Shown here: positions 41,801 to 55,658 of the stretch, piece after piece | Numbering within the stretch: the first letter of the stretch is position 1 | Layout: every line of letters starts with the position of its first letter | From: Thermodesulfobacteriota bacterium | GTDB taxonomy: Bacteria > Desulfobacterota_D > UBA1144 > Nemesobacterales > UBA2774 | NCBI GenBank assembly: GCA_040754335.1 | Contig: JBFMCV010000001.1 | Location: 62,001-126,000 of the forward strand | Length of the DNA stretch: 64,000 nt | Direction of reading: 5' to 3' | Position numbers and translations under genes: made by a program | The notes under the pieces: generated by a model | The model's database searches: none | The model's input: only the letters and a program-made list of their open reading frames with translations | Told to the model about the DNA's origin: nothing

Positions 41801-42225
41801 GTGATTTCAAGGACTCGAAGACCCCGACTGTTTCGAATGACGGGCCCAAGGTGATGATGATAAACGGATGGTCGGGCTCCGGAGGGGACGCGTTCCCCTA
41901 CTACTTCAGGAAGGCAGGGCTGGGCCCGCTCGTCGGGACGAGGACGCTCGGCGGGCTTATAGGCATCAGCGGGAACCCCGGTCTCATAGACGGCGGGTAC
42001 ATCACTGCGCCCGGTTATGCGTTCTGGAACTCGCACGGAAAGTGGGAGATCGAGGGTTACGGAGTAGAGCCGGATTATGAGGTCGAGGATCTGCCTCCAA
42101 ATATCAAGGGCTCGCAGGACCCGCAGCTCGACAAGGCGATAGAGATAATTACCGACCTCCTCGAAAAGAACCCGCCCGCGAAGCCCGAGCGTCCGAAGTA
42201 CGAGGACAGATCAGGGGCCGGATAA
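38878..42225 (+). CDS. Tricorn-protease-like serine peptidase, exported
   Basis: About 1115 residues in tricorn order: beta-propeller repeats with TolB/WD-like blades (about 55-680: FSPDGADIAFSGNYDGNTDIY, WSPDGKYVAYLSDRSGEYELY, WSPDSRKLAFSDKTG), a mixed C1 domain, a PDZ domain (about 830-910) and a C-terminal S41-type protease domain. Catalytic candidates are His in NSSHTYVGGG, Ser in GWSGSGGDAFPYYF and Glu in YGVEPDYEVED, matching His746, Ser965 and Glu1023 of the Thermoplasma enzyme. A hydrophobic N-terminal leader implies export, unlike the cytosolic archaeal form. The start is uncertain (ATG at 38878, 38908 or 38956). Confidence 0.92.
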   Translation: MDYYGGCNRSMRKLNCAFSNLSREPRMIWVLPVLLLCSVLGIISGSAEPPADKAGMDTKPDALMLRFPDVSSDRIVFVYAGDIWVVPKAGGVASRLSSPRGSELFPKFSPDGADIAFSGNYDGNTDIYVMPSGGGVPERITHHPDDDLVAEWYPDGKSILFRSNMLSPTQRYNRLFKVSKQGGMPEALPLPYGELGSFSPDGQKLAFEYMAPMRGVWKRYKGGMASDIWIYDFSSGAIEKLTDFPGTDTLPMWRGDRIYFLSDRGEEKKLNLWVYETGTKKTRQVTDFAEFDVKWPSLGPDDIVFENGGRLYLLSLPDETVSEVSVEVPYDLPEVRPRQKDLSDNISDMSVSPNGKRALFEARGEVLTVPAGEGSVRNLTNTSGVAERFPAWSPDGKYVAYLSDRSGEYELYMRLSNGEGEEQRITNDGKVYRYHPVWSPDSRKLAFSDKTGRLFIVDTSGKVPKEVDKDDYEGIGSYSWSPDSRWLAYAKSTPNNLRSIFIYDTKSGVTRRVTSDFYNDNGPVFDPDGKYLYFYSDRGFSPVYGDMDDTWVYPNSTQVYAVTLRKDTQSPIAPRSEEEYSPGKDSQKETAGTDGGVAIDFGGIEDRAVKIPVDAGNFGPLNAAKGRIVYLRFPPAGSGKDSPNGVLQFFDLGDRKEKTVIAGISDYALSANGAKALYRSGDTYSIIDLSEGKNPGDGRIDVGGMKAFVDPRKEWSQIFNDAWRIERDFFYDPGMHGVDWQAVRERYRKLLPFVVDREDLNYVISEMVGELNSSHTYVGGGDMDEPETVPVGLLGIDFELDKKNNAYRIKKIYSGGEFNADIYSPLAEPGVNVGEGDYILAVNGRKLDTARDPWEAFQGLNGTPVTLTVNSAPDEQSARKITVKVISKTEEQKLRYLDRVAGNMKKVDKATGGRVGYVYVPDTGILGQNELVRQFTPQTEKEGIIIDERFNGGGQVPDRFIELLNRPNLNYWAVRDFKDSKTPTVSNDGPKVMMINGWSGSGGDAFPYYFRKAGLGPLVGTRTLGGLIGISGNPGLIDGGYITAPGYAFWNSHGKWEIEGYGVEPDYEVEDLPPNIKGSQDPQLDKAIEIITDLLEKNPPAKPERPKYEDRSGAG

Positions 42226-42232
42226 GCGGGAC

Positions 42233-42658
42233 GTGAAGAAAGTAATCGGTTTGATAACACTTCTCGCCGCACTCCCCGGTCTCGCAGGCGTCTACCTGCT
42301 CATTAAATCAGGAAACCTACCGCCTGGTGCTTTGCTCATAGTCGTGAACGCGGTCGTTTTCAGGGGCGTGTGCGGAACTGTCGGTGGGATCCTGCTCTTT
42401 GCTGGCAGGAGGTGGGGGAGCTACCTCGCTCTCGTTGCATGGTCTTATCTCATAGTCGTTTCGATACTAACGCTCATAGGGCTCCACGACAAGGGCCTCC
42501 AGCTTGTATCTTTACTTCACGGGGAAGTTCCCGCTTCTTTCGGAAAGCCGCTCTTCTGGTCTCTCGCAAAATTAGTCCTCGGAATTCCGGTAGCTTACGC
42601 CCTAATGATGGACATACTCCGGGCGAGAAGGTCACTTAGCAGCCGCACCGGAGCATGA
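42233..42658 (+). CDS. Small four-helix membrane protein
   Basis: 141 residues with four hydrophobic helices (about 5-25, 33-58, 63-85 and 108-127) and a basic C-terminus (RARRSLSSR). No family is recognised. It starts with GTG only 7 nt after the tricorn-like gene, so it is probably translated from the same message. Confidence 0.7.
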   Translation: MKKVIGLITLLAALPGLAGVYLLIKSGNLPPGALLIVVNAVVFRGVCGTVGGILLFAGRRWGSYLALVAWSYLIVVSILTLIGLHDKGLQLVSLLHGEVPASFGKPLFWSLAKLVLGIPVAYALMMDILRARRSLSSRTGA

Positions 42659-42809
42659 CAGGATCGTTATTTTATCTTTTTGAAAATTTTCCGGATCCCT
42701 CATACAGTTTTGTGCGTACCAATGTAAGATACGTCCGGCTTTTTTACCCGCCGCGCACTACGTATACTAGTTATTTATATGCCCACATGTCTTCAGGGAG
42801 ACTGACACC

Positions 42810-43352
42810 ATGGTAATGACCGATAAGAGATACGAGAAGGCTACATTTTCGGGGGGCTGCTTCTGGTGTATGCAGCCGCCTTTCGACAGGCTCGAGGGAG
42901 TAATATCGACTACGGTCGGGTATACGGGCGGGAAGGAGAAAAACCCGAATTACCACGAGGTCTGCATGGGCAGAACGGCACACTTGGAATCGATAGAGGT
43001 CATATACGATCCGGAGAGAATCTCCTACGACCAACTCCTCGACGTATTCTGGCTCAACATCGACCCGACCGACGACGGAGGGCAGTTCGTCGACAGGGGC
43101 AGGCACTACAAGACCGCTATTTTTTATCATAACGAAGTGCAGAAGAAGACGGCCGAGGAGTCGAAAAGGAAGCTCGGGGAGTCGGGCAGATACAAATCGC
43201 CCGTAGTGACCGAGATAAGGCCCGCAATGGAATTCTACCCGGCCGAGGAGTACCATCAAAAATATTACGAGAAAAATCCCATCGGCTACTCACACTACAA
43301 GGTCGGCTCCGGCAGGGAGAGGTATATAGAATATATGAAGAATATGAAATAA
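42810..43352 (+). CDS. msrA: Peptide methionine sulfoxide reductase A
   Basis: 180 residues. It reduces methionine-S-sulfoxide in proteins. The active-site motif GGCFWC is at about 15-20 (nucleophile Cys17). Conserved features are TTVGYTGGKEKNPNYHEV, GRTAHLESIEVIYDP, FWLNIDPTDDGGQFVDRGRHYKTAIFY and AEEYHQKYYEKNP. The more usual GxTGHAE is TAHLE here. No MsrB domain is fused. GGAG lies 9-10 nt before the ATG at 42810; a second ATG follows at 42816. Confidence 0.97.
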   Translation: MVMTDKRYEKATFSGGCFWCMQPPFDRLEGVISTTVGYTGGKEKNPNYHEVCMGRTAHLESIEVIYDPERISYDQLLDVFWLNIDPTDDGGQFVDRGRHYKTAIFYHNEVQKKTAEESKRKLGESGRYKSPVVTEIRPAMEFYPAEEYHQKYYEKNPIGYSHYKVGSGRERYIEYMKNMK

Positions 43353-43425
43353 ATGTGTATATCCCGCCCGCCCCGGGTGAGCTTTGCGGAATGAGCGCCG
43401 AATTTCACGAAGGAGGACATGCGAA

Positions 43426-43728
43426 ATGGCTGACGATAACAAGAGGTGGTTCGAAAAGAACGCTCCAAAGATGGCGGAGGGGTGGTGGAGCTTCTATAAC
43501 GCGGTCGAGGGGGAGACCGTGCTCGACAAGAAGACGAAGGCTCTCATAGCCGTATCCGTCGCCGTGCACGGGAGGTGCCCCCACTGCACGGAGTCCCGTA
43601 TAAAGAAGGCGCTCGCGCTCGGCATAAGCAAGCAGGAGATAAGCGAGGCCATAATGGAGACCGCTCTCCTTTCCTCGGGGACCGAGATATTCTGGGCGAA
43701 GGAAGTTTACGACAAATACCTGGGATAG
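43426..43728 (+). CDS. AhpD-like / carboxymuconolactone-decarboxylase-fold protein
   Basis: 100 residues of the CMD/AhpD helical family: KTKALIAVSVAVHGRCPHCTESRIKKALALGISKQEISEAIMETALLSSG, with the CPHC redox pair and downstream His expected of AhpD-type peroxidases. It probably reduces peroxides with thiol partners. The ATG at 43426 has AAGGAGG about 9 nt upstream; the frame opens earlier at 43384. It follows msrA by 73 nt, consistent with an oxidative-repair pair. Confidence 0.92.
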   Translation: MADDNKRWFEKNAPKMAEGWWSFYNAVEGETVLDKKTKALIAVSVAVHGRCPHCTESRIKKALALGISKQEISEAIMETALLSSGTEIFWAKEVYDKYLG

Positions 43729-43810
43729 CCCCGCTTAAGGCATTACGACTACCCCGTATTATTGTATTATTAATGACTTCAAGTTCCTATGAAGGCGGAA
43801 GTTCTGCGCC

Positions 43811-43838
43811 TTGTTGTTTTTCCCGGCATGGGTATACT
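43811..43838 (+). promoter_or_regulatory. Promoter of the tRNA-Pro gene
   Basis: TTGTTG (43811-43816), a 16-bp spacer and TATACT (43833-43838), ending 14 nt before the mature tRNA 5' end. Confidence 0.55.
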
Positions 43839-43852
43839 CATTCTTCCTCGGT

Positions 43853-43929
43853 CGGGGTGTAGCGCAGTCTGGTAGCGCGCGGCGCTTGGGACGCCGAGGT
43901 CGGAGGTTCGATCCCTCTCACCCCGACCA
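43853..43929 (+). tRNA. tRNA-Pro (anticodon TGG)
   Basis: A 77-nt cloverleaf. The acceptor CGGGGTG pairs with CACCCCG, followed by discriminator A and an encoded CCA. The D arm is GCGC/GCGC. The anticodon stem CGGCG/CGCCG has loop CTTGGGA, giving anticodon TGG (43887-43889). The T arm is GGAGG/CCTCT with loop TTCGATC. The last part (43907-43927) is repeated exactly at 45388-45408. Confidence 0.97.
43907..43927 (+). repeat. 21-bp direct repeat in tRNA-Pro (attL-like)
   Basis: Covers the T loop through the first C of CCA. Identical to 45388-45408. Duplication of a tRNA 3' end is the usual mark of tyrosine-recombinase integration. Confidence 0.93.
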
Positions 43930-43933
43930 CTCT

Positions 43934-45370
43934 TCATTGTTCTCTAAGCGAGACCGGCGGGAAGTAAAGTGCTACGAGCTCTCGGTTCCAAATGGCCCCT
44001 GTCCGGCTCCGTTCCTCAGGCGTAGTGAATCGATATTCGTATAATAACGCTCGGACATATTTCGGCGGCTTATCGGGAAAGGGGTTATGCCGGAGAAGTC
44101 TTAGTACGGCCTCATCGCCCTCTAAAAGTTTTTCCATAAAATTTATAAACCACGGATGCTGCATCGGCGAAGAGAGCGCGGCAAACCACATCAGCCATTC
44201 GAGCCGCAGGTGATAGGGCGCTATCTGCGGCGGTGTGCGGCTCACGTCCCCCGGCTTGCCGATGAATTCATACTCGCGCCAGCGGGTAGACTCCGTAAGC
44301 ACGGGCTCGTCCGTTCCCTCGACGATCACTTCATAGCGCGGCCGCGTGATTGACCCGAAAGCGCCGTAAGTATTCACCAGGTGGAGCGGCTCGAAAGATG
44401 CGTTCATTAGTTGGTTCGGGGACATCATGTTGCTCACAGTAAAAAAACTCAATACCGCAACAAGTGCTGTAAGACCCAGTGTGGCTGACACATAAAAACG
44501 GCCGGGCTTGGCAAACTCGGGAAGGCGGATCGGAATAACGCGCTTTAACCATGAGTCGCTGATGGTGCTCAGCGCCAGGACCATCGTGAGCAGTCCCAGA
44601 AATGAAAAGTTCCCGCTGGCAAAGAGCCACAAATGAAAGAATATGGTTATGAACCCCGCAACCGCACTTATTTGATACGGCGCAAAATAGGCAAACGGGA
44701 CGATTAGCTCGGCGAAGTGATTAAAGAGCACTCCCGTTTTGTGGACCCATGCCGGCAGCCAATGGAAATACCAGCTAAATGCGTTCGGCATAGGCTGGGT
44801 TTCGTAGTGGTACTGGAGACAGGTCAAATCACGCCAGCAGGCGTCTCCCCGGATTTTTATAAGTCCCGCGCCGAACATCACGCGGAAGAGCAGCCAATTG
44901 AAAAGAAGTATTACGAGATAGGACGGTTTGGTCCTTTCGGAACCCAGGAAGATCGCAAGAAACCCGGCTTCCAGAAGCATCATCTCCCAGCCGAATCCGT
45001 AAAACGTTTGACCCACGTTTACAAAAGAGAGGTAAACCAGCCAGAGCGCACCCCAGGTTCCTGCAGAGATATAATTGCCGAATTTCTCAGAGAACCCCGA
45101 AAGTGCAAACAGGGAAAGAGCGATACCGATCCATCCGAACAAATCGAAGGCGAAATCGGTCGGGGACCAGAAGAAGATGCTCGGCGATTCGATGAAACGC
45201 ACCTGCTCTACGAATTGCGGGACTGGAAGAAGTCCGTGCTCTCCTAAAAGAGGCTTGAACTGATGAACGACGGCTATGAAAGCGATCAGATAAACGAATG
45301 CCAGGCCCCGCTGAAGGACGAGTCTTGTCAGCCAGTAGCTATCTGTCCATTTAATCCCTTTTATGTTCAT
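43934..45370 (-). CDS. Lipase maturation factor (LMF1/LMF2) family membrane protein
   Basis: 478 residues with about eight to ten membrane helices. The family signature is clear: FRVMFGAGLIKIRGDACWRDLTC, then LQYHYETQPMPNAFSWYFHWLP, and a soluble C-terminal part (RYEVIVEGTDEP, YEFIGKPGDVSRTPPQIAPYHLRLEW, VRALLYEYRFTTPEER). In animals LMF1 helps lipases fold in the ER; the bacterial role is unknown, perhaps in folding or export of envelope proteins. The gene is bracketed by the tRNA-Pro repeats: its stop lies 4 nt past the tRNA and its ATG 17 nt from the second copy. No ribosome site is seen. Confidence 0.93.
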   Translation of the reverse strand: MNIKGIKWTDSYWLTRLVLQRGLAFVYLIAFIAVVHQFKPLLGEHGLLPVPQFVEQVRFIESPSIFFWSPTDFAFDLFGWIGIALSLFALSGFSEKFGNYISAGTWGALWLVYLSFVNVGQTFYGFGWEMMLLEAGFLAIFLGSERTKPSYLVILLFNWLLFRVMFGAGLIKIRGDACWRDLTCLQYHYETQPMPNAFSWYFHWLPAWVHKTGVLFNHFAELIVPFAYFAPYQISAVAGFITIFFHLWLFASGNFSFLGLLTMVLALSTISDSWLKRVIPIRLPEFAKPGRFYVSATLGLTALVAVLSFFTVSNMMSPNQLMNASFEPLHLVNTYGAFGSITRPRYEVIVEGTDEPVLTESTRWREYEFIGKPGDVSRTPPQIAPYHLRLEWLMWFAALSSPMQHPWFINFMEKLLEGDEAVLRLLRHNPFPDKPPKYVRALLYEYRFTTPEERSRTGAIWNRELVALYFPPVSLREQ

Positions 45371-45387
45371 ATCATTTTATCATCACA

Positions 45388-45408
45388 TTCGATCCCTCTC
45401 ACCCCGAC
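45388..45408 (+). repeat. 21-bp direct repeat, second copy of the tRNA-Pro 3' end (attR-like)
   Basis: Identical to 43907-43927, with no tRNA body attached. It bounds a 1.48 kb segment that contains only the lipase-maturation-factor gene. Confidence 0.93.
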
Positions 45409-45645
45409 TGTATACCCCCGGTACGCACATCCACGATTCAATTTCCGGATCCCGGGAAGGCTGTCCCTGTCCTGACCCGTTAACTCAATTCGGTCAAAAT
45501 ATGTACCTTGTGCCGAAATTGATATTTATTTAATATTAGTTATATCCCCGTTTGCAGTGGAGAAGGCGGTTGAATGCGGGTTTCGCGGAACCGATAATCG
45601 GATGCGGCGTTCGAAAAGCTCTGATTAAATATTCAACCAACAGAA

Positions 45646-46899
45646 ATGAAACACAAGCATATTATTCTCTCGGTTATAACCGCTCTGCTGACTCTTGTTT
45701 TCGTGGAGATCGGGCTGCGTTTATTGGTGCGTCCGTCTAATAACTCCTACGGAGTGCTTTTTAACAAAGATTTGCCCCCCTTCAAACTTATCCCCTCGGA
45801 TATTATTCCGGAATGGGAAAGCGGCAAAAAACGCGAGCTGTTCGATTTCAAAGTCGTTGACGGGAAGAAGCTGAGGTTTGACGATTTCTTCCCCATTCTC
45901 AGGGACGACCCGCTGCTGGGTTTCACGGTCGGGGAAAATTACATCTCAACCAACGGCTGGAGACATTCCAACAACTTCGGAGCGAGATCAAGCGAGCCGC
46001 TTTCCCCGGATAAGCCGCACAACCGAGAGCGGGTCCTTTTTTTCGGCGATTCTTATACCGCCGGGGCTACCATTCCGCAGGACCAGACAATCATTCACTA
46101 TCTGAATGAAAAAAGGCCGGACGTGGAGTTCGTGAATTTCGGCGTCGAAGGCTACAGCACGGGACAGGCGTTTCTTAGGTTTCGGACTTTAAAAGACAAA
46201 CTCGAATTCGACCGTGTATTCCTGGTGTTCGTTCCGAACATGGACCTGTGGAGGGATATTAACGTGAACAGATATATCGGCGGCTCCTGGGCTGGATATT
46301 ATTGCTATAACATACCCGTATTTGTTATCGAAGGCGGGAAACTCGAGCTTATACCGCCTCCCTACGGCTCGCTCGAAGAATTATTCGAGGATAACCGGGA
46401 TTCTGTACAGTCCCGGTACAGGGAGCACCTGAGAAAATATGATAATTACTACAGCTCCATGTATGAATCTGTGTACCTGCTCGACAATTTTGTTGTTTTC
46501 AAGCTTCTCAGAAAATTCTTCAACCGCGTGAAATTCGAGTACGAAAGAACGTTCGGTATTTCGGAGAGCGTCATGGACGCGCGCTCCGAAGCTCAGACAG
46601 TGACTAAAGGAATCATCGACGAGATGGGCAGGGAAGCTCAATCTAATGGCGCTCGGTTTTCATTGATCGTTCTTCCCACGGACTCCGATATAAGAAGGTA
46701 TAAGACAGAAGATTCGTATAAGAAATCCTGGGATGAGATGACTCGATTTATCTGTTCGGGAGAGATCGTCTGTTATGACTTTATGGACGACCTGTCGGGC
46801 CTTACCGAGGAAGAGCTGGATACAGGAAACGACGGTACGCATTACGGTCCTAAAACTAACGAACGGATCGCTGACCTCATATTAGAAAAATCCTTTTGA
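45646..46899 (+). CDS. Membrane-anchored SGNH/GDSL-hydrolase-like protein
   Basis: 417 residues. An N-terminal transmembrane segment (about 5-25) precedes a short linker and an SGNH-type domain. Block I is VLFFGDSYTAGATIP (Ser), later FVNFGVEGYSTGQAF (Gly), LVFVPNMDLWRDIN (Asn) and DGTHYGPKTNERIADLI (catalytic Asp and His). Such proteins often acylate or deacylate polysaccharides at the cell envelope. No ribosome site precedes the ATG, and A/T content looks higher than in neighbouring genes. With the adjacent tRNA-flanked gene it may be imported DNA (inference). Confidence 0.85.
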   Translation: MKHKHIILSVITALLTLVFVEIGLRLLVRPSNNSYGVLFNKDLPPFKLIPSDIIPEWESGKKRELFDFKVVDGKKLRFDDFFPILRDDPLLGFTVGENYISTNGWRHSNNFGARSSEPLSPDKPHNRERVLFFGDSYTAGATIPQDQTIIHYLNEKRPDVEFVNFGVEGYSTGQAFLRFRTLKDKLEFDRVFLVFVPNMDLWRDINVNRYIGGSWAGYYCYNIPVFVIEGGKLELIPPPYGSLEELFEDNRDSVQSRYREHLRKYDNYYSSMYESVYLLDNFVVFKLLRKFFNRVKFEYERTFGISESVMDARSEAQTVTKGIIDEMGREAQSNGARFSLIVLPTDSDIRRYKTEDSYKKSWDEMTRFICSGEIVCYDFMDDLSGLTEEELDTGNDGTHYGPKTNERIADLILEKSF

Positions 46900-47176
46900 A
46901 ACTCTCTCGTCGAAGGAACTTCGCGCCGTATCGAAGCTGTGCGGTGAGTCCGCCGCTGGCCCCGCGCGGGTCACTGTCCGGGACGTGTTTCTCGAGCGCC
47001 CGGGATACCTTCGAGCCTCCCGATTTAAAGAGCCGGCTGATAATCAGAACCGCGGGACGGGGACTGACCTGGAACGCAACGTAAGCAGCTGCGCCGAGGA
47101 CGACGATCACGATGAGAATCCAGAGAAGGACTCTGATCGCGACAGGCATCAATCTCCGGCCGCCTGCTTCGTTCAT
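46877..47176 (-). pseudogene. Possible N-terminal remnant of a membrane-anchored alpha/beta hydrolase
   Basis: A 99-codon frame with a good ribosome site (GGGAG 8 nt before the ATG) and one membrane helix (VLLWILIVIVVLGAAAYVAF). The part after the helix, QVSPRPAVLIISRLFKSGGSKVSRALEKHVP, resembles the lead region of some membrane-anchored alpha/beta hydrolases just before their catalytic domain, but no catalytic domain follows. The last codons run antisense into the 3' end of the SGNH gene, so the gene may have been cut off there. It may also be a real small membrane protein. Confidence 0.45.
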
Positions 47177-47578
47177 TTTCGTCTCTCCCTGCAGTGACTG
47201 ATTATCAGGCCTTAAGAATGCGGTGCGGATAACCGACTTCCCCCATACTACAAAGAATCTTATTCCGAGTCAATACACGGCAAGGCCTGCTGGGACCGTA
47301 TGTTCGTTTGTCTGTCATCTGTCCTATATTCTTACACTTGCAGGCTCCCTGAAATTGATTATAACTTCCTGTTAACATGCAAAATAATCGGATGGCATCG
47401 CTCTTGCCATAATTTAATATCGAATAAAATTACTTCTGCATCCCGCATAGACGCATATGCATCGTAACTGATGTTTTTGAACGGTCGTAAGGAGGGCGAG
47501 GAAGAAGATAGAGAACGCGCTCCGAAAATTATAGGGAGCGGTCTTGAATTATTCGACGGAGTCGAGAAAAATCACAAG
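47177..47578. other. Intergenic region upstream of the efflux operon
   Basis: 402 bp before the TolC-like start. No gene is apparent. The last half is A/T-rich and should hold the operon promoter; the best match (TTGCCA, 15-bp spacer, TAAAAT, about 47404-47430) has a short spacer and is not called. Confidence 0.5.
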
Positions 47579-53235: not shown

Positions 53236-53254
53236 ATCCGTCCCGTACGCGCGT

Positions 53255-53350
53255 GATTTCCGGTCAATGGAAGACCGTAGAAGTTTTGCTTTACATTCGG
53301 CGGTGAGGGCGTCATGCCTTATTGAGCGATTTGGCTTTACCGGTCCTGAC
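53255..53350 (+). repeat. 96-bp degenerate direct repeat, copy A (MEMO gene 3' end)
   Basis: Aligns without gaps to 55563-55658 at 74 of 96 positions (hand count). It spans the last codons and stop of the MEMO gene plus 57 bp beyond it. Confidence 0.85.
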
Positions 53351-54169
53351 TATTACCGCAGCCGCATAACCGACAACGGACTCGTAGTCACCCGTAACGT
53401 CGCCCGAATTGGCGTAATTGAGGATTTCCACGCGGTCGGCCCCCAGATCGCGGCAAGCCCATAATACCGCGGCTATAGCGCCGCTCCCGCAGGCGAAACC
53501 CGCTCCTTCGCTCTCTGCTTCCGAGACGCCGTCCGGATCGAATGCTCCAATTCTGCGGAGCATCTCTCCATCGAACTTTCTCGCCGGGATGTCCGGATAA
53601 AAGTGAGACAAATCCGAGCTTGCTATGAGCAGAACCTTGCGGCCGGCTATGACACGAGCGAGTGAATGTCCGAGCGCTTTCGCGGCCCTCGGGTTTGAGC
53701 CGTACAGCATTACGGGCAGCATACGGGGAGAGCCCAGCATGTACTGCAGGAAGGGCAGCTCGACCTCGACCGCGTGTTCCGGATCGTTGCTTACGGGGAC
53801 CAATTCTTCCTTGTACGCCTCCATGAGTGTACGGTTGAGCGCGTTCATCAAGTCCTTGTCTATTTCCACTGTCCCCAGAGGAGTTTCGTAGGCATCGTGA
53901 GAGGAAGTGATAATATTTCCGGAAGAGAGAAAATGAGACGGTGAAACGATGACAACTGTTTCGAACTCCATGCCTCTTATACACTTGTATGCGTATGCGG
54001 CGACCTGCCCGGAGTACATGTGACCGGCGTGCGGCGCTATGATGCCGACTACCTCACCGACGGGTTTATTTAATTCCGCATTCGATATGTACCGTTCTAT
54101 GCTTTTGACAAGGAGCCGGGGGTTTCGCTGATACCACGCACCCCCGATCGATGGTCTGATGTTCTTCAT
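53312..54169 (-). CDS. MEMO1-like protein (AmmeMemoRadiSam system protein B)
   Basis: 285 residues of the MEMO family, related to extradiol dioxygenases. Ligands matching the human MEMO iron/copper site are His47 (IIAPHAGHMYSG), His79 (VSPSHFLS) and the Cys in GFACGSGAI; EHAVEVELPFLQ and IASSDLSHFYP are also conserved. Its biochemical role in bacteria is unknown. It lies 80 nt downstream of its usual radical SAM partner; the third usual member (AMMECR1) is not in the window. The last 12 codons lie in a 96-bp repeat whose second copy sits beyond the radical SAM gene. Confidence 0.93.
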   Translation of the reverse strand: MKNIRPSIGGAWYQRNPRLLVKSIERYISNAELNKPVGEVVGIIAPHAGHMYSGQVAAYAYKCIRGMEFETVVIVSPSHFLSSGNIITSSHDAYETPLGTVEIDKDLMNALNRTLMEAYKEELVPVSNDPEHAVEVELPFLQYMLGSPRMLPVMLYGSNPRAAKALGHSLARVIAGRKVLLIASSDLSHFYPDIPARKFDGEMLRRIGAFDPDGVSEAESEGAGFACGSGAIAAVLWACRDLGADRVEILNYANSGDVTGDYESVVGYAAAVIVRTGKAKSLNKA

Positions 54170-54249
54170 TATCTTGCGGCCGTCATGCCTCCGTATCCGC
54201 GCCCGTAAACAATTTCTGCTTGTATGCCGTACATTGACGATCCTGCTTC

Positions 54250-55395
54250 CTAAGCACCGTAAGTATCATCTGCGGAAGGAACGTGTCCGTGTTTCTTTGG
54301 TATTGGCATTATATCTACGGAGAGTCTTCGTGATCCCCAGTTTCCGGGCTCCGGGTCGAGGCGGCCTGACAGCGCGGTTCCGCAAAACGTACAGCGCCCG
54401 TTCTTATCAAGATTCCATTTCCCGAGCTCGTACCTGCTCCTCCCGATCAGAAGGCTGTCGCAGGAAGAGCAGTACGTGGACTCGCCTTCAGGGTCGTGGA
54501 TATTTCCCGTATATACGTGGTTTATGCCTGTCTCTTTTGCGATTCTCCGGGCTTTTTTCAGCGTCAACGGAGGGGTAGGGGGTACGTCCGTCATTTTAAA
54601 GTCGGGATGAAACGCCGAGAAGTGAAGCGGAACGTCCGGGCCGAGATTATCCAGGACCCATTGACTGAGCCTTTCGATCTCTTCGGCCGAGTCGTTGCGG
54701 CCCGGTATTAAAAGAGTGGTTATTTCGAGCCACGAATCCGTCTCGTTCTTTATCCATTTCAGATTGTCCAGGACGGGTTCAAGCTCGGCGAGACATATTT
54801 TCCCGTAGAATTCCTGCGTAAACGCTTTTAAGTCGACGTTTACGGCATCTATATTGGCAAAAAACTCCTTTCTCGACTCGCGTGATATATAACCCGCTGT
54901 CACGGCGACGGTCTTTAGCCCGAGGTCATGCGCTGCCAGAGCGGTGTCCGTCGCATACTCGGCGAAAATAACTGGGTCGTTATATGTAAATGCGATACTC
55001 TTGCACGATTGTCGTTTTGCCTCGAGTGCAATGTCTTCGGGAAGAGCGTGTGAAGTGAGTCTTTCGTCCTGCTTTGCCTTGGAGATATCCCAGTTCTGGC
55101 AGAACCTGCATCCGAGATTACATCCTGCTGTTCCGAATGATAATACGCTTGTTCCGGGGTAGAAATGATTCAGGGGTTTTTTCTCGATCGGGTCGATACA
55201 AAAGCCCGAAGCGCGCCCGTAGCTCGTAAGGACGATTTCTCCGCCCTGCGCCCGGCGGATGTAGCAGAAGCCGCGCTGTCCCACGCGAAGTCTGCAGTAC
55301 CTGGGGCATAGGTCGCACTGCACCCTTTCATCATCCAGCCGGTGCCACCACCCTCCGCTTACCGTATATGGTGCGATAAACTTTCTTTTTTCCAT
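54250..55395 (-). CDS. AmmeMemoRadiSam system radical SAM enzyme
   Basis: 381 residues. The [4Fe-4S]/SAM motif is at Cys92, Cys96 and Cys99 (AGCNLGCRFCQ). An N-terminal cysteine cluster (Cys27, Cys30, Cys34, Cys44) and a C-terminal zinc-ribbon-like pair (YCSSCDSLL; RCTFCGTAL) may bind another cluster or zinc. It resembles pyruvate-formate-lyase-activating-type enzymes (ITTLLIPGRNDS; FHPDFKMTDVPPTP). It is expected to modify a protein or small molecule together with the MEMO protein; the target is unknown. Confidence 0.95.
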   Translation of the reverse strand: MEKRKFIAPYTVSGGWWHRLDDERVQCDLCPRYCRLRVGQRGFCYIRRAQGGEIVLTSYGRASGFCIDPIEKKPLNHFYPGTSVLSFGTAGCNLGCRFCQNWDISKAKQDERLTSHALPEDIALEAKRQSCKSIAFTYNDPVIFAEYATDTALAAHDLGLKTVAVTAGYISRESRKEFFANIDAVNVDLKAFTQEFYGKICLAELEPVLDNLKWIKNETDSWLEITTLLIPGRNDSAEEIERLSQWVLDNLGPDVPLHFSAFHPDFKMTDVPPTPPLTLKKARRIAKETGINHVYTGNIHDPEGESTYCSSCDSLLIGRSRYELGKWNLDKNGRCTFCGTALSGRLDPEPGNWGSRRLSVDIMPIPKKHGHVPSADDTYGA

Positions 55396-55562
55396 GTACT
55401 TTTTACCTTGTTTACTTCATAGCATATATTATATCATCCTTGCGAAATGAGATTTGTTACAGGCTCTTATGGCCACGGCCATCGAACCCGTTCGGCATCC
55501 ACTTTCTCCGCATACGGACATAGAACCGGCGCGAAAACAGGCGCGTCTCGTCCCTTCCCCGG

Positions 55563-55658
55563 GATTTCCGGTCTATTGACAACCGAAGGCGGTTTGCTTT
55601 ATATTGGGGCATGAGGGCGTCATGTTGTGTTGAGAGATTTGGCATTGCCGATCCGGAC
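55563..55658 (+). repeat. 96-bp degenerate direct repeat, copy B (MEMO 3'-end remnant)
   Basis: Matches copy A (53255-53350) at 74 of 96 positions. On the minus strand it still reads VRIGNAKSLNTT-stop, against VRTGKAKSLNKA-stop in the real MEMO gene. It therefore looks like the tail of a lost MEMO gene. It also contains the promoter of the next gene. Confidence 0.82.
55576..55605 (+). promoter_or_regulatory. Sigma70-like promoter of the lipoprotein gene, inside repeat copy B
   Basis: TTGACA (55576-55581), a 17- to 18-bp spacer and TTATATT (55599-55605). Repeat copy A has a mutated -35 (TCAATG-like) at the same place. The start codon is about 75 nt downstream of the expected start site. Confidence 0.6.

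Follow-up and report, generated by a model that had tools for sequence, protein, structure and literature searches.

A single gene of the lipase maturation factor (LMF) family, enclosed at a tRNA-Pro (TGG) gene between two exact copies of the tRNA 3' end, is probably a non-autonomous insert resembling a cis-mobilizable element (CIME), which would have entered by site-specific recombination of the tyrosine-recombinase type and would form the tRNA-proximal member of an accreted array. It lies in a 64-kb stretch of DNA, hereafter the window, whose genome (G000) was compared with relatives including three genomes of the same genus (G001-G003) and one from another family (G018).

The bracket at tRNA-Pro and its gene

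The sequence TTCGATCCCTCTCACCCCGAC stands at 43907-43927 and again, in identical orientation, at 45388-45408, as the original prediction had it; the pair is unique genome-wide, the 21-mer having only these two sites in 3.26 Mb when up to three mismatches are allowed, and a reversed control pattern having no match. The features of the locus are as follows.

42050..43929, + strand: conserved upstream flank (peptidase end, small ORF, msrA, CMD gene, tRNA-Pro), 80-83% DNA identity with G001-G003
43853..43929, + strand: tRNA-Pro (TGG), the target gene, intact and with CCA encoded (ARAGORN); the same 3' end is kept in G001-G003
43907..43927, + strand: tRNA-proximal 21-bp repeat, from the T-loop to the first C of CCA
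43934..45370, - strand: LMF family gene (PF06762 and PF25179), 97% of the bracket length
45371..45387, - strand: 17-nt leader from the LMF start codon to the distal repeat, with an in-frame TAA inside
45388..45408, + strand: distal 21-bp repeat, then TG where the tRNA has CA
45409..47312, no strand: second non-homologous stretch before synteny with G001 returns, presumably an older accreted unit
45646..46899, + strand: SGNH/GDSL-like hydrolase gene in the second stretch, Pfam match slightly under cut-off
46877..47176, - strand: 99-aa ORF in the second stretch, matching no Pfam family

Identity between the repeats ends sharply on both sides, with GGAGG/TTCG in the tRNA against CATCACA/TTCG at the distal copy on the left and GAC/CA against GAC/TG on the right, so that the distal copy, which covers tRNA-Pro positions 55-75 only, lacks the CA of CCA; it is followed by TGTATACC and then by the GDSL gene. 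The unit measures 1,481 bp and holds one intact gene and no recombinase gene. Both the sequence and Pfam bear out the single LMF gene and its tight spacing: the 478-aa product matches LMF1 (195 bits) and LMF1_C (180 bits) well over cut-off, its stop falls 4 nt beyond tRNA-Pro, and its ATG lies 17 nt from the distal copy. A search with PF00589 found no match in the 64-kb window, the single match on the same contig (C1) being about 290 kb off. As for a promoter of its own within the bracket, the sole promoter-like match (45402-45374) would start transcription inside the gene, and this candidate was rejected.

The gene itself is foreign to the host family, in keeping with the earlier reading of an island scar or a gene cassette. 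A homologue is absent from all 15 same-family genomes, those at the level of the order reach 36-43% identity at best, and the closest are found in distant phyla (Terriglobales, 74%, with a C-terminal fragment; Chloroflexi, 54%), while its codon usage is the most atypical among the window genes tested. Viral contigs and phage records yielded no LMF gene, plasmids yielded five distant matches only (38-52% identity), and no LMF homologue in other genomes adjoins a tRNA with matching geometry.

The tRNA-Pro locus in relatives and a possible course of insertion

Up to and through tRNA-Pro, the window aligns with G001, G002, and G003 at 80-83% identity; these genomes carry the tRNA-Pro without the copy and without LMF, and no second copy of the tRNA-Pro end was found in them or at the other same-family loci examined, in the stretch read. 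In G001, 77 bp follow the tRNA before homology resumes at window position 47313 (an RND efflux locus), so that 43930-47312 is extra DNA relative to that genome, made up of the LMF bracket and then 1.9 kb with the GDSL-like gene and a small ORF. In G002 and G003, 60-70 bp lead to the gene found at window position 55576. The GDSL protein has a counterpart in one of 30 relatives, at 44% identity, and no third or decayed repeat rises above shuffles near 47.2 kb, at the far end of the second stretch. Because the distal flank matches no relative's tRNA-Pro flank, there is no clean empty site for the LMF unit. The comparison of empty sites proposed earlier thus held in part, as relatives do lack both gene and copy, but the nearest relative also lacks the following 1.9 kb. 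Two further observations concern this region: a DUF302-like gene (named by eye) adjoins tRNA-Pro in G001 and G006 and is deleted in the window at 47484-47495, where its two flanking points now adjoin, and MEMO1-like and radical-SAM-like genes with atypical codon usage (53236-55573) are extra relative to G001.

Had a single unit simply integrated at the tRNA, the distal copy would be the original end pushed outward, and CA and the native flank would come after it. The distal fragment here lacks CCA and runs instead into DNA foreign to every relative, on which basis the LMF unit most likely inserted ahead of an earlier insert, the GDSL stretch, and would be the newest member of the array, an accretion order that we infer. 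The crossover would have fallen in the T-loop/T-arm part of the tRNA-Pro gene, and the incoming unit would have brought a copy of the tRNA 3' end, leaving the tRNA whole and turning the displaced 3' fragment into the distal repeat; the recombinase would have been supplied in trans or since lost. The LMF copy begins at the T-loop, which is one of the three crossover positions known in tRNA genes, the others being the anticodon loop and the T/acceptor junction (PMC4383910). attP sites occupy about 250 bp (PMC4383910), whereas the bracket leaves 4 and 17 nt free, too little for ordinary attP arms; either these were lost by trimming, or they were dispensable to an arm-independent recombinase, or the coding sequence contains them. 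An arrival as a small unit seems slightly better than an even prospect, and trimming from a larger island slightly less than one. Of the two readings first offered, a trimmed island scar and a cassette moved in trans, both stay plausible; what stood is the fit of the bracket to an integrase-less tyrosine-recombinase footprint at a tRNA.

tRNA-bounded segments across the genome

All tRNA genes were located, and the roughly 20 kb that follow each were read where the contig allowed. The proposed search for other genes between tRNA 3'-end copies revealed small integrase-less brackets at further tRNAs: nine of the 46 tRNAs of G000 have a copy of their own 3' half in cis within 19 kb, seven of them within 2 kb. 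The copies lie at 1.46 kb (Pro-TGG), 1.02 kb (Thr-CGT), 1.19 kb (Met), 1.32 kb (Leu-TAG), 10.4 kb (Ser-TGA), 7.5 kb (Phe), 1.96 kb (Pro-CGG), and 0.85 kb (Arg-CCG), and Ala-CGC has two, at 0.34 and 1.12 kb. The Met copy is the weakest of the set (score 37), and that of tRNA-Pro-TGG scores 42. With G000, G006, and G018 pooled, 11 of 129 tRNAs have a cis copy scoring at least 38, against nine of 5,444 mismatched tRNA/flank pairs from these genomes; at a score of 50, the counts are 10 tRNAs in cis and four mismatched pairs. The pooled counts omit copies that the tRNA search itself identified as tRNAs (Arg-CCG in G000, a tandem tRNA in G018). Copies occur at four of 44 tRNAs in G006 and four of 27 in G002, a same-genus genome in many short contigs, and G018 has none beyond tandem tRNAs. 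Most sibling copies begin at tRNA positions 29-33 and extend to CCA.

PF00589 has six sites in G000, only one of which falls within a segment, namely a 115-aa integrase C-terminal fragment in the Ala-CGC bracket, cut exactly at a T-loop copy. The short segments of G000 carry an SDR, an Mrr-type restriction enzyme, an RNase II/RNB protein, a PhnB/3-dmu-9_3-mt protein, small unknown proteins, and a Cys-rich secreted protein, and intact single genes occupy several brackets (LMF, SDR, RNB, Mrr, and PhnB-like). In G006, the cargo is an arylsulfotransferase-like gene at tRNA-Phe and a GH130-like/glycosyltransferase pair (names by eye) at tRNA-Arg-CCT; the latter recurs in the tRNA-Phe segment of G000 with 85% identity over 3.5 kb, so that one cargo pair sits at two different tRNA genes. 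No end sequences are common to the LMF unit and other segments beyond the similarity of the tRNAs. At Leu-TAG, about 105 bp of the distal copy are identical and run on into a diverged homologous stretch, like two related tandem units. With some nine segments, nearly all free of recombinases, it seems that in this lineage tRNA genes serve repeatedly as landing sites for small gene inserts.

Empty sites and accretion are seen at several of these tRNAs. At Phe, the tRNA joins directly, in G003, G004, and G018, to the sequence found 3' of the distal copy in G000; nearly empty sites occur in G006 for Leu-TAG and Arg-CCG and in G005 for Pro-CGG, and at these three the DNA missing from the relative extends past the distal copy, as at tRNA-Pro-TGG. 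G002 carries at Pro-CGG a different 2.2-kb unit (cupin, YHS-like, and AraC-like genes, by eye) ahead of the same next gene, which indicates that new units enter beside the tRNA; the Ser-TGA units of G002 and G000 also differ in cargo. At tRNA-Gly-CCC of G006, the displaced copy has kept the CCA that the tRNA has lost, an arrangement that agrees with the prediction of the integration model. The gene in place without its repeat, which the original prediction had named as evidence against itself, was not seen at tRNA-Pro, but it does occur at tRNA-Leu-TAA, where G002 has a T-arm copy 1.63 kb downstream, past an HD-GYP-like gene that in G000 too stands beside this tRNA, there without a copy; a bracket therefore need not mean that the enclosed gene was an insert. 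Compared with its siblings, the LMF unit offers weaker evidence, given its T-loop-only copy, the missing distal CCA, the lack of room for attP arms, and the lack of a clean empty site.

Some of the segments share an arm. The Phe and Ser-TGA units of G000 have about 200 bp inside the distal copy in common at 81% identity, of which about 80 bp match the Arg-CCT unit of G006 at 75-78%, and the arm is also present at the tRNA-Phe copy of G002. A motif near CTAAGAACCATCCA lies 129-131 bp ahead of the core in the arm-sharing units and in the G006 Phe unit, and a sequence resembling it stands at a similar distance in the Ser-TGA unit of G002; no such motif was found in the LMF unit, in the other short single-gene units, or in viral contigs. 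Arm-type sequence also marks either end of a 53.85-kb element at tRNA-Arg-CCT (C2:72659-126511), whose 371-aa tyrosine integrase (Pfam-tested) adjoins the tRNA and is a candidate helper for the integrase-less segments. The suggestion of a recombinase acting in trans from elsewhere thus gained a tyrosine integrase that shares arm sequences with some of these segments, but no such link to the LMF unit, which has no arm motif. Other ORFs of the 53.85-kb element resemble, by eye, a large serine recombinase, RND-type efflux, MerR/ArsR-like regulators, a TIR-like protein, and a TraD-like ATPase. Beyond its distal end (C2:72396-72659), three further units at about 88-bp spacing all terminate in CTCTCGGGGACGCA, with which tRNA-Arg-CCT also ends, forming a small tandem array of tRNA-end repeats.

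It is conceivable, albeit rather unlikely, that many tRNAs are served by a single integrase family that has a conserved arm, the Arg-CCT integrase or a relative moving cargo into Phe, Ser-TGA, Arg-CCT, and perhaps others, with the anticodon-loop overlap of each unit setting the target. Armless single-gene units such as LMF would then form a second, simpler class that behaves as integron cassettes do but lands at tRNA genes.

Alternative histories and known systems

A larger integrase-bearing element at tRNA-Pro may have lost everything except its two att copies and the LMF gene, the latter kept because it was useful or by chance; this trimmed scar is a serious minority possibility and also one of the histories that the CIME-like reading accommodates. 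Trimming is seen in this very genome, in the Ala-CGC integrase fragment that ends exactly at a T-loop copy, the space for attP arms is missing at LMF, and CIMEs are usually described as decayed ICEs or IMEs (PMC5704250). Deletions, however, seldom spare two att copies together with an intact gene whose margins are a mere 4 and 17 nt, LMF is flanked by no gene fragments, and several brackets are nonetheless filled by intact single genes (the five named above).

It is improbable that donor DNA carrying LMF and a tRNA-Pro fragment joined the host tRNA-Pro by homology-facilitated or illegitimate recombination, with no site-specific recombinase involved. Such an event would suit a copy that begins at the T-loop and has no CCA, a gene flush with both repeats, and the presence of the 21-mer in the tRNA-Pro genes of many phages, none of which encodes CCA and several of which continue with TG or TC. 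Yet the distal copy comes without any 5' tRNA half, and the bracket geometry repeats at many tRNAs with empty sites, a recurrence that is a hallmark of site-specific integration. A phage attP carrying the 21-mer was considered and rejected, as each of the 22 viral matches proved to be a complete phage tRNA-Pro gene. That chance or an assembly artefact made the bracket has a negligible probability: the genome is in 20 contigs and a single bracket alone might mislead, but the locus lies deep within a 720-kb contig with conserved flanks, the 21-mer is confined to its two sites, and own-tRNA copies stand far above the mismatched controls.

These brackets bear on how tRNA islands are counted. Islander, a main finder of them, requires an integrase and at least 2 kb (PMC4383910), so that the LMF unit and most of its siblings are excluded and single-gene tRNA-bounded inserts go uncounted there. 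Such inserts mark about one-fifth of the tRNA genes of G000, and in relatives the cargo at a given tRNA differs. Provided that the units move as such, tRNA genes would be general capture sites for single genes, an idea that a candidate helper recombinase within the same genome makes testable. As in Islander's islands, a tRNA and a displaced 3' fragment mark the ends, and the LMF fragment lies downstream in the same orientation and ends at the first C of CCA, but the unit has no integrase inside and, at 1,481 bp, falls short of 2 kb.

Among known systems, two candidates were rejected, the integron gene cassette, because the window has no PF00589 match and the boundary is a tRNA gene, and the Tycheposon, because the tRNA-bordered bracket holds no XerD-type recombinase. 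CIMEs with tandem accretion have been described (Pavlovic 2004, as cited in PMC5704250), and like them the LMF unit keeps a putative att copy on either side, appears to have accreted at a tRNA 3' end, and has no integration or transfer genes; unlike them, single-gene units occur at many tRNA genes of one genome and no autonomous neighbor stands at tRNA-Pro. As to a possible ICE/IME ancestor, an integrase remnant is seen at Ala-CGC only and none at tRNA-Pro. The ssrA islands of Dehalococcoides, which have 20-bp 3'-end repeats and stand in tandem, 15 of them without an integration module and interpreted as possible CIMEs (PMC3146451), are similar in their repeats and missing module, and differ in their tmRNA target, serine recombinase, and larger cargo. 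In "Ca. Actinomarinales", small cassettes likewise stand beside several tRNAs, the newest being marked by a partial tRNA direct repeat at its end, and cassettes are exchanged between genera (PMC7771536); they lie mainly in one envelope island, whereas here unlinked tRNA genes and mixed cargo are involved. The additive island fGI-2 of "Ca. Methylopumilus" also has inserts bounded by a tRNA-end repeat, a repeated 20-nt tRNA-Lys end delimiting islands that range from 330 bp to 42 kb and carry 1-63 CDS, although it uses one tRNA and the present genome many (PMC10872708). The G000 segments fit such an additive tRNA-repeat cassette island, in that a partial tRNA repeat ends the cassettes and these vary among the genomes compared. 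The LMF unit thus joins published kinds, namely CIMEs, ssrA islands without an integration module, the Actinomarinales cassettes, and the Methylopumilus tRNA-Lys islands; what is unusual is how many unlinked tRNA genes a single genome uses and that different tRNA targets have an arm in common.
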